Source: Geobacillus subterraneus
GTDB lineage: Bacteria; Bacillota; Bacilli; Bacillales; Anoxybacillaceae
Assembly (NCBI RefSeq): GCF_001618685.1
Contig: NZ_CP014342.1
Coordinates: forward strand, 1,984,001-2,048,000
DNA: 64,000 bases
Direction of reading: 5' to 3'
Shown here: positions 3,800-6,373 of the stretch, piece after piece
Layout of the letters: each line of letters starts with the position of its first letter
Numbering within the stretch: the stretch's first letter is position 1
Position numbers and translations under genes: made by a program
Notes under the pieces: generated by a model
What the model saw: the letters and a program-made list of their open reading frames with translations, nothing else
Database searches by the model: none
What the model was told of the DNA's origin: nothing

Positions 3800-4435
3800 G
3801 TTTCTTTCCTTGTTCATCGCACCCGATTTCGCCAAAGCTACTCTCGTTGGATGTGGCGCTCCGAAGGCTTCAATTCCCCACTAACGAATGGGTACATGTC
3901 AATAGCCGCTTTTCGTGCTAGGCTATTGACTCACCATATTTTTTTAAGTTTCTACTTGCGTTCACATCCCTGTCTATTTTACTTCCACATTCATCACATA
4001 CAAACGTTCTTTCTGACAAAGAAAGTTTCTCTTTTACAGCCCCACAATGGCTGCAAGTTTTAGACGAAGGGAAGAATCGATCGGCAAGTATCAACTTGAT
4101 CCCATTCCAGGCACACTTATATTCCATTTGCCTTTTAAATTCATGGAATGTTTGTTCTTGGACGGCTTTCGATAGCTTTCTGTTCTTTAGCATTCCATGA
4201 GTATTTAAGCTCTCCATGACTACATACTCTGGCTTGGTTTTCACCAAAGATGCAGTGATTTGATGAATAGAATTGTGCCTGATGTGTTTTAGCCTTCGAT
4301 AGGTCTTTCGAACAAGGAATTCCAACTTCTTTATATTGTTTGTTTTTCTGTAACGGTATTCACCTCTATACACAACTTGTATAATAGTTTTTGCAAATTG
4401 TATATAGAGTTTTACGAAATTTTATAAATTTATTT
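3800..4435 (-). mobile_element. IS200/IS605-type element remnant (approximate limits)
   Basis: An AT-rich island of about 640 bp holds a shortened tnpB gene and nothing like tnpA. The upstream edge (minus-strand sense) carries TTTAT followed by AAAATTTCGTAAAAC at about 4400-4435, which could be a left end next to a target motif. The downstream edge lies somewhere between the tnpB stop at 3918 and the inverted repeat at 3759-3797. Limits are inferred from base composition, not from a confirmed junction. Confidence 0.6.
3918..4373 (-). pseudogene. tnpB: TnpB (RNA-guided nuclease of IS200/IS605), truncated
   Basis: 151 residues from a GTG at 4373, against roughly 370-400 for full TnpB. It keeps the second RuvC acid (VVMESLN, E54), a zinc ribbon (CSHC at 107-110, CDEC at 126-129) and the last RuvC acid (DRDVNAS, D136). 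The N-terminal domains with the first RuvC Asp are missing. Compared with the family as I remember it, the stretch between KTNNIKKLE and TYRRLKHIR also seems shortened, suggesting two deletions. Without the first catalytic Asp it should not cut DNA. It could still bind RNA or repress, as some inactivated relatives do, but that is speculation. Confidence 0.8.
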
Positions 4436-5089: not shown

Positions 5090-5414
5090 GAAATCTCCTC
5101 CCCTCTTTTTCTAGTATATCATCCAATCGGAAAGGCCTCGACCCCTAAAGCGCACTTTTCGCCCCAAAGTTGCTGTCCATGCCACAATGAGCGTCGTGAA
5201 CAACGAAGCTGCTCCATCGGGAATCGTTCCCGAATGTCAGCCCTAACACACACGGACCGCCATCCGTACAAAGCGAAGCTGACAGACCTATGCCACCGCT
5301 CGGCGTGCGGTCAAGGCAAGAAAATAGAAGGAGGCGCCAGCCACGCTCTGGCGCCCAAAGCCCGATCGATGGCGACAGGCGGCCGAAATCGCAGGCCGCC
5401 TGTTTTCATTCTTC
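5090..5414. other. Intergenic region with two GC-rich hairpins
   Basis: No convincing gene. It holds two inverted repeats: GGCGCCA/TGGCGCC (5333-5339 and 5349-5355) and ACAGGCGGCC/GGCCGCCTGT (5375-5384 and 5393-5402). The first is followed on the minus strand by a T-rich stretch and may end the VOC transcript. The second has its short T-run on the plus side. Confidence 0.5.
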
Positions 5415-5798
5415 TTATCGTTCCGGCTCGTAAAATTCGATCCATTCCCCGTCCGGGCCGAGGAAAAACAAATATTTCGCCCCGTTCGGAAGCTCCGTAA
5501 TGTCCTCCCAAACGAGCGGGACGCCAAGCGACACGAGCCGCTCTTTCTCCTGCTCAATGCCTTCGACTGTAAAGGCAACATGATGCACTTTTCCTTCCGT
5601 CGGCAAATTCGGATTGTATCCTTCAATCAGCTCGACGATGATCTGTCCGTCAAGCCCTAAAAACGCCAGTTTCATCGTCCCGTTTGTATGGATCATCTCG
5701 CTGAGCAGCTCGAGGCCGACGACGTTTTGATAAAATGCTTTTGATGTTTCAATATCTTTCACCTGGATGCCAACGTGTTCAAATTTTTTGACTGCCAT
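5415..5798 (-). CDS. VOC-superfamily protein (glyoxalase I type)
   Basis: 127 residues if started at the ATG at 5798 (MAVKKFEHVGIQV), which has AAAGGA 10 bases upstream; a longer in-frame start at 5825 would overlap the previous gene. Two beta-alpha-beta modules carry a complete metal-ligand set: His in EHVGIQV, Glu in IIVELIE, His in VHHVAFTV and Glu in EWIEFYE. This points to a metal-dependent lyase, isomerase or dioxygenase of the lactoylglutathione lyase/methylmalonyl-CoA epimerase type. It starts 16 bp after the 111-residue gene that follows the S-box riboswitch, so it is probably controlled by S-adenosylmethionine. The substrate is unknown. Confidence 0.8.
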   Translation of the reverse strand: MAVKKFEHVGIQVKDIETSKAFYQNVVGLELLSEMIHTNGTMKLAFLGLDGQIIVELIEGYNPNLPTEGKVHHVAFTVEGIEQEKERLVSLGVPLVWEDITELPNGAKYLFFLGPDGEWIEFYEPER

Positions 5799-5814
5799 TC
5801 GTTGTTCTTCCTTT

Positions 5815-6150
5815 CTATGATTCAATGGAAAACACAGCCCGCAAATACGGGGTCATTCGTGGTGGGAAAATGTCCTTTTTTCCTAGCTCCATCCATACAT
5901 AGCGGTCAAGAGCATACGGTCCTTCCGCTTTCCATTCCTCCGCCTCATCGTTCGTCAGCACGATGGAAAACATCGCTCCTTGCGCTTCCCCATACAAGTG
6001 GATATAGCCGTCCCCGCGGTCGATATGCACCACCGCCTGCCGATCGAACCGGATGAGCTCCGTCCGCACGCAGCGCATGACATGAACAGCAAACGTCGCC
6101 GCCGGCAAATGCGCCGCCATGCAAGCGCGCAGCGACAGTCGTTCCGCCAC
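5815..6150 (-). CDS. Uncharacterised 111-residue protein behind a SAM riboswitch
   Basis: GTG start at 6150 after AAAGGGAGGTGAGGGGGAAGCA, a strong ribosome site. I do not recognise a family. The sequence has no signal peptide and no convincing membrane helix, a basic, Cys-containing N-terminal half (VMRCVRTELIRFDRQAVVHI) and an acidic stretch (TNDEAEEWKAEG). Its leader carries an S-box aptamer and terminator, so expression should rise when S-adenosylmethionine is low. With the VOC gene it forms a two-gene unit. A role in methionine, sulfur or methyl-group metabolism follows from the riboswitch only. Confidence 0.7.
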   Translation of the reverse strand: MAERLSLRACMAAHLPAATFAVHVMRCVRTELIRFDRQAVVHIDRGDGYIHLYGEAQGAMFSIVLTNDEAEEWKAEGPYALDRYVWMELGKKDIFPPRMTPYLRAVFSIES

Positions 6151-6176
6151 TGCTTCCCCCTCACCTCCCTTTCAAT

Positions 6177-6214
6177 AAAAAACCCCCTTCCGCCTCGGAA
6201 TGATGCGAAAGGGG
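6177..6214 (-). terminator. Riboswitch expression-platform terminator
   Basis: On the minus strand CCCCTTTCGC pairs with GCGGAAGGGG (one mismatch), followed by GGTTTTTTATT. It lies between the S-box aptamer and the GTG at 6150, as expected for S-box transcription attenuation. Confidence 0.85.
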
Positions 6215-6218
6215 ATAG

Positions 6219-6327
6219 CCGTTCTTATCATCCAAAGCGACATCGCTTTGCGGGTGTTAGCACCTTGCCAGCGGCAGGTTGCTGTGGGGTCATCAAGCCC
6301 GTTCTCTCGCCCACTCTTGATAAGACG
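6219..6327 (-). promoter_or_regulatory. SAM-I (S-box) riboswitch aptamer
   Basis: Read on the minus strand it shows the S-box landmarks in order: CTTATCAAGAGTGG, then GAGAGAACGGGC, then TTGATGACCCC, CAGCAACCTGC, GCAAGGTGCTAACACC, a variable stem (CAAAGCGATGTCGCTTTG) and the closing GATAAGAA that pairs with the opening CTTATC. The terminator at 6177-6214 follows. Binding of S-adenosylmethionine should favour termination upstream of the 111-residue gene. Confidence 0.93.
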
Positions 6328-6344
6328 TATGTAATTTACCTCTT

Positions 6345-6373
6345 ATGTTACCATAAGTGGGCAAAGGCAACAA
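6345..6373 (-). promoter_or_regulatory. Sigma-A promoter for the S-box transcript
   Basis: TTGTTG (-35, 6368-6373) and TAACAT (-10, 6345-6350) are 17 bp apart on the minus strand, placing the start of transcription about 10-15 bases before the aptamer. Confidence 0.6.

Follow-up and report, generated by a model that had tools for sequence, protein, structure and literature searches.

A distinct S-box subclass precedes the genes of the unnamed protein P111 and a VOC enzyme in Geobacillus subterraneus

Leader and genes of the P111-VOC locus

The window analysed here is a stretch of 64,000 nucleotides of the Geobacillus subterraneus genome, to which all coordinates refer. On its minus strand, between positions 6373 and 5415, lies a leader followed by two genes, the same span that an earlier sequence-only reading had assigned to the finding. 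The first gene (5815–6150, stop included) starts with GTG and encodes a protein of 111 amino acids from an unnamed family, here called P111; it is recognized by its homologues, its dN/dS ratio and a structural model. The second gene (5415–5798, stop included) starts with ATG and encodes a VOC (glyoxalase I-like) protein of 127 amino acids, identified by Pfam family PF00903 and by adjacent orthologues. A Shine-Dalgarno-like GGAGGTGAG lies upstream of the P111 start codon at 6150, and the VOC start codon at 5798 is located 16 nt past the P111 stop (5815). Hairpins 3′ of the VOC gene (5332–5405, minus strand) are a likely operon terminator, based on a terminator-like site at 5356–5332 and on folding of the region.

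An Rfam scan detected one S-box within the 64-kb window, at 6326–6222 on the minus strand. It matches the SAM-I family (RF00162) over its full length with 81.7 bits, compared with a gathering threshold of 44.4 (E 1.1e-17), in agreement with the complete aptamer that had been proposed from the sequence. Like other SAM-I elements, it shows the P1–P4 fold and the stretches GAG, GCAAC, GGUGC, UAUC and GAU, to which we assign the contacts with SAM, presumably the J1/2 G, the P3 A/C and U/G and the A-U pairs of P1. The linked expression platform is present as well: a hairpin followed by a U-run forms an intrinsic leader terminator at 6214–6177 (minus strand), evident from sequence and fold, and this region folds with –21.4 kcal/mol over 42 nt. 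The terminator claimed earlier is thus real, and a hairpin ahead of a U-run was found in 29/29 P111-class leaders folded, where hairpins were counted without a shuffle control. Pairing of GCUUUGRAUG with the 5′ arm of the terminator looked attractive by eye as an antiterminator, but performed weakly in a permutation test. Across 27 leaders, with the arm cut too short in L115, L139 and L150, the cognate mean was –6.16 and that of shuffled arms –5.56 (sd 0.32), and 449 of 5000 permutations reached the cognate mean; a cognate antiterminator in P111 leaders is weakly supported.

The weakest item of the locus is the promoter. A consensus scan of the window reports none on the minus strand. The putative σA element TTGTTG-17-TAACAT at 6345–6373 (minus strand), with a TG ahead of the –10 region, is nevertheless plausible, because 11 of 26 listed leaders carry a TTGTCA-17 spacing that is similarly far from the aptamer.

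The P111 family and the VOC gene

Among 101 genomes searched, 26 have a P111 homologue, and a profile search of 397 genomes of the order identified 65; both figures include the own genome. In a class-wide sample, 31 of 299 genomes gave matches, including 26 from family f62, which belongs to another order. The median dN/dS is 0.20 (32 of 105 pairs usable). Based on this distribution and a dN/dS of about 0.2, comparison of sequences indicates that P111 is a real gene family under purifying selection and more than a chance open reading frame. The earlier reading could not place it, and it has no named family: none of 23 members matched Pfam or NCBIfam at E 0.01. One of these 23 weakly matches phrog_7730 in PHROGs (E 0.0015), no sequence match was found in the PDB, and phages and plasmids gave none at E 0.01. 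In the nearer set, conservation is highest in the motif PYALDR, close to the C-terminal helices, while in the wider set V24 alone is invariant and M1, R8, D82 and Y102 are conserved in at least 90% of the sequences.

The AlphaFold model of P111 (pLDDT 92) shows the order helix-helix-three strands-helix-helix, which in our view resembles the α-β-β-β-α arrangement of dsRBD or SRP Alu-domain proteins. Chains of these two types are among the weak Foldseek matches of the model, which include nothing below E 0.028 in the PDB (TM-scores about 0.3) and nothing below 0.0071 in BFVD, and we make no claim of homology. Since Foldseek against PDB and BFVD returned no match below E 0.001, the function of P111 cannot be read from its structure. 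Because the protein is small, has few invariant residues and lacks both an enzyme-like profile and a fold match, we regard it, on weak evidence, as most likely a small adaptor or regulator of the cytosol without enzymatic activity, which would be made at low SAM.

We then related P111 to S-boxes. An S-box is located within 300 nt upstream of the gene in 61 of 80 P111 loci and 1.9–2.6 kb upstream in three; the remaining 16 have none. In the nearer loci, an S-box is found upstream in 20/20 homologous loci and in 7/7 further ones; G034 is part of both sets, which leaves 26 distinct loci, or 27 including the window. The 53 distant loci (L078, L109–L160) have an S-box within 300 nt in 34 cases, at 1.9–2.6 kb on the same strand in three (L116, with only 34.9 bits, L119 and L131) and none in 16. 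In f6 (L116, L119), the S-box leads genes for a TPR/Trans_reg_C-like protein and an M42/M28-like peptidase, followed by P111. Two linked S-boxes look degenerate by reading, since L110 lacks part of P3 and P1/J4-1 is broken in L131. The S-box-less loci comprise twelve of f40, that of Domibacillus, two of f25 and one of f2. Rfam searches for another leader in 15 of them revealed only two T-boxes, both on the strand opposite to P111, and the sixteenth (L078) has one T-box, also on the opposite strand. Searching P111 loci of f62 with model R2 yielded an S-box in 0/6; G497 has one. With 16/53 distant loci and 6/6 of these f62 loci lacking an S-box, P111 is not always under SAM control.

A few loci deviate in other ways. 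P111 also follows a TPR/Trans_reg_C-like protein and an M42/M28-like peptidase in L110 (f13). A second S-box on the same strand is located downstream of P111 in L145 (3191–3299) and L152 (995–1102), in addition to the one leading P111. G021 carries three S-box-P111 copies (L056, L059, L159), one of full length and with a VOC gene, the other two shortened.

Of the 14 Geobacillus genomes, eight have an intact P111 and five a disrupted one (G003, where the N-terminus is out of frame, G005, G006, G007 and G013); in the last it was not found. In L058 (G031) and L061 (G005), deletions have apparently truncated P111 and fused its start to other sequence, by reading a VOC-like piece in L058 and, in L061, sequence matching the AraC-type gene; the S-box is intact in both.

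The second gene had been described as a VOC enzyme, and its match to PF00903 (58.8 bits, cut-off 20.6; query started one codon upstream) confirms this and places it in the same fold family as glyoxalase I-like proteins. Its nearest PDB sequence is 3l7t (E 3.9e-7), presumably a protein of S. mutans. The score against the SMU1112c/YaeR equivalog NF050075 is 50.1 bits, below the cut-off of 140, so the protein falls outside NCBIfam's YaeR family. Residues of a putative His-Glu-His-Glu metal site are present, by reading, in EHVGI, VELIEG, HHVAF and IEFYEP, which we take to be the expected metal-holding stretches. By analogy to its superfamily, the protein is probably a metal-dependent glyoxalase I-like detoxifier, and it would act on an oxoaldehyde or a thiol adduct. 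Identity with a named Bacillus glyoxalase was considered and dropped: the neighbourhoods of VOC relatives in three genomes gave no tie, and we assign no gene name. The glyoxalase passage of a paper on antisense riboswitches (PMC9943018) concerns an aminoglycoside riboswitch.

The sequence-only reading had proposed that P111 and VOC together handle one metabolite tied to methionine or methyl-group metabolism. Of the 26 nearer loci, 19 indeed carry a full-length VOC gene that follows P111 behind a common leader, and L040 carries a decayed copy. However, this adjacency is limited to the family of the window and to G065 (f26), and no VOC gene was found at E 0.001 in 53/53 distant P111 loci (each about 4–10 kb). 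At E 1e-20, 109 of the 397 genomes contain VOC relatives. We searched 21 of the 30 VOC loci returned with model R1, leaving out nine S-box-linked loci of f1; an S-box is present in three of them, and judged by position that of L170 (G065) is the only one leading the VOC gene, so that in 20/21 no S-box does. The two genes are also lost independently: VOC is intact and P111 disrupted in G003, G006, G007 and G013, and VOC is decayed and P111 intact in G004, which argues against one shared reaction. A joint pathway is thus distinctly improbable in our assessment, and the proposal was not supported. The VOC gene, with a median dN/dS of 0.059 (75 of 171 pairs usable), is best explained as a local, lineage-specific passenger of the P111 operon, a role that we infer from these distributions.

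Between positions 586 and 5089, the window encodes by reading two 4HBT thioesterases, an arginase-like protein and an AraC-type protein. This set adjoins P111-VOC in 11 of 12 Geobacillus loci examined. The same region contains a RAGATH-18 RNA at 3806–3867 on the minus strand (RF03064, 64.9 bits, gathering threshold 44.9), just downstream of an open reading frame (3918–4373, minus strand) that by reading resembles the end of a TnpB-like transposon protein.

The P111-type S-box subclass

The usual view of S-boxes is that they control methionine and sulfur genes. The own genome contains nine S-boxes, and the eight others lead what we take, from the open reading frames, to be metI/metC-like, methionine synthase/methylene-THF reductase-like, two metN-type ABC, cysH, mtnW, mtnK and metK-type genes. 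P111 and VOC stand outside the classical S-box targets, as had been noted before. A comparison of leaders adds a feature that is invisible from one sequence, namely that the window leader belongs to a distinct subclass.

For this comparison, all 29 S-boxes that a census detected in six genomes were combined with the nine of the own genome; the combined set holds five P111 leaders and 33 others. The difference is clearest at positions 64 and 85 (presumed T. tengcongensis numbering), which are A-U (4) or C-U (1) in the five P111 leaders, compared with U-A (28) or C/C (5) in the 33 others. Among 88 elements of the subclass, 87 are readable at these positions and 75 have A-U, the others being U/U (3), A/C (3), C/U (2), G/C (2) and G/U (2). 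The P4 sequence GCAAAGC is present in 73/88 subclass elements and in 0/33 other S-boxes, and the P2 loop GGCUC in 80/88 and 0/33, respectively. The window aptamer shows this pattern with A64-U85 and P4 GCAAAGC/GCUUUG. PMC2258182 describes a long-range cis Watson-Crick pair in which one base directly precedes the 3′ strand of P1 (position 85); its named partner precedes the P2b pseudoknot on the 5′ side and need not be position 64. The 64-85 pair therefore rests on our own counts, in which positions 64 and 85 change together, while the base preceding the L2 strand does not follow them.

In a tree of 88 subclass elements and 32 other S-boxes (109 columns; the mtnK S-box was left out because of a long insert), the subclass forms one side of a branch with an SH-aLRT of 97, which is not independent support because its members were picked by similarity. 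As judged by these sequence features, the P111 leaders are a distinct S-box subclass of SAM-I that travels with P111 through the order.

To define the genes led by this subclass, we searched 397 genomes with a model of the P111 leaders under strict filters. All 397 contain some S-box match, and about 150 of the best matches were considered. The subclass was taken as the listed matches that score at least as high as that of G200 (85.8 bits), a cut-off chosen by hand, with G080 (86.1 bits, metE-like gene downstream) left out; two matches examined below it, in G117 and G330, were both cysH-type. This gave at least 89 elements in at least 84 genomes, with downstream genes assigned by position or by reading the next open reading frame. 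Among these at least 89 listed elements, 63 lead P111 or short P111-like genes and one a classical met gene, a marked difference from SAM-I elements at large. P111 itself, including decaying copies and one operon (G206), accounts for 49. A further 14 elements, all in f44, lead short proteins of about 80–100 amino acids; seven of these proteins matched P111 in hhalign with a probability of 81% (E 1.3e-5), which is suggestive of a relationship. An alpha/beta hydrolase is led by 12 elements, and a small "TPEELEAF"-type protein by nine, once followed by a gamma-glutamylcyclotransferase-like gene. One element leads a gamma-glutamylcyclotransferase-like gene alone, one a MetY-like gene, and three are without assignment. 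Pfam identified one hydrolase fragment as Hydrolase_4/Abhydrolase and one cyclotransferase as GGACT, and gave no match over the cut-off for two TPEELEAF-type and two short f44 proteins.

Such unusual targets could reflect a change in the signal, i.e. the subclass might sense SAM at a different set point, or another ligand. Its separation from the 32 other S-boxes in the tree, its own gene associations and the differences at 64-85, P4 and the P2 loop all fit this explanation, and SAM-I variants that reject SAM have been published (PMC10853860). The variant characterized in that report is the spermidine riboswitch of Gram-positive bacteria, which also has its own gene associations, with changes in J1/2 and the P3 internal loop and with polyamine genes downstream. 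By comparison with these published changes, neither the window nor the subclass is altered in J1/2 or the P3 internal loop: GAG is kept in 88, GGUGC in 87, GAU in 87, UAUC in 86 and GCAAC in 82 of the 88 elements. Polyamine synthesis genes are likewise missing downstream, where the window has P111 and VOC and none was seen by eye in 44 further loci (Pfam on seven open reading frames). With neither the J1/2-P3 changes nor polyamine genes, we rejected identity of the subclass with the spermidine variant.

Positions 64 and 85 presumably have a structural role in the crystal structure rather than contacting the ligand, which also speaks against an altered ligand. Because the contact stretches are intact, we keep this explanation as a rival only and consider it unlikely.

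Proposed regulation

Based on established S-box biology and the anatomy of the leader, we read the element as an OFF switch for P111 and VOC. At high SAM, P1 of the aptamer would be stable, the terminator at 6177–6214 would form, and both genes would be silent. At low SAM, as under methionine limitation, the 3′ side of P1/J4-1 would be free, the terminator would be avoided, and P111 and VOC would be transcribed. The window leader is accordingly predicted, from its conserved aptamer, to bind SAM and thereby to lower readthrough, and in some lineages members of the same subclass lead other uncharacterized genes.

Alternatively, the terminated leader itself could be the product, acting as a SAM-dependent RNA in trans with the downstream genes being secondary. 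The Listeria S-box RNAs SreA and SreB are reportedly trans-acting. This explanation would account for the conservation of the P4 sequence far beyond the needs of a helix, for S-boxes that remain intact where P111 is broken (G005, G006, G007, G013, G031) and for downstream genes that vary between lineages. But P4 conservation may serve an antiterminator or the aptamer, and intact P111 copies are under purifying selection; we consider a trans-acting leader highly improbable.

Attenuation in cis is the preferred reading, and we think it likely, with some reservation, that the locus is a P111-VOC operon controlled by a SAM-I attenuator of a distinct subclass that travels with P111, with P111 as a non-enzymatic protein and VOC as a passenger. 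A further-reaching version, to which we give a low probability, would make the P111-type S-box a functionally separate subclass that has a ligand or SAM set point of its own and perhaps works in trans, and the basis of a second Bacillales SAM regulon of uncharacterized small proteins and hydrolases, with P111 as the founder of a new family of SAM-starvation effectors.

S-boxes in front of orphan genes are already in print, since in Table 4 of an RNA-seq study of Bacillus methanolicus (PMC4342826), three genes or operons marked "Unknown function" are preceded by SAM riboswitches. These resemble the present case in their orphan targets, and the passages on them describe no family or subclass. 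Within the open literature, which excludes most subscription papers, we found no report of the P111 family or of this S-box subclass.

The association of an S-box lineage with an unnamed family in dozens of species suggests that the response to SAM extends beyond biosynthesis. It also provides a set of orphan genes with predictable induction, i.e. P111, its short relatives, the alpha/beta hydrolase and the "TPEELEAF" protein. For the riboswitch itself, the inverted 64-85 pair and the near-fixed P4 offer a natural test of how such changes tune a well-studied RNA. A third state of this pair, C/C, is found in L009 of the own genome and in L208, L212, L213 and L218; among these S-boxes, metK was read downstream for L009 only.
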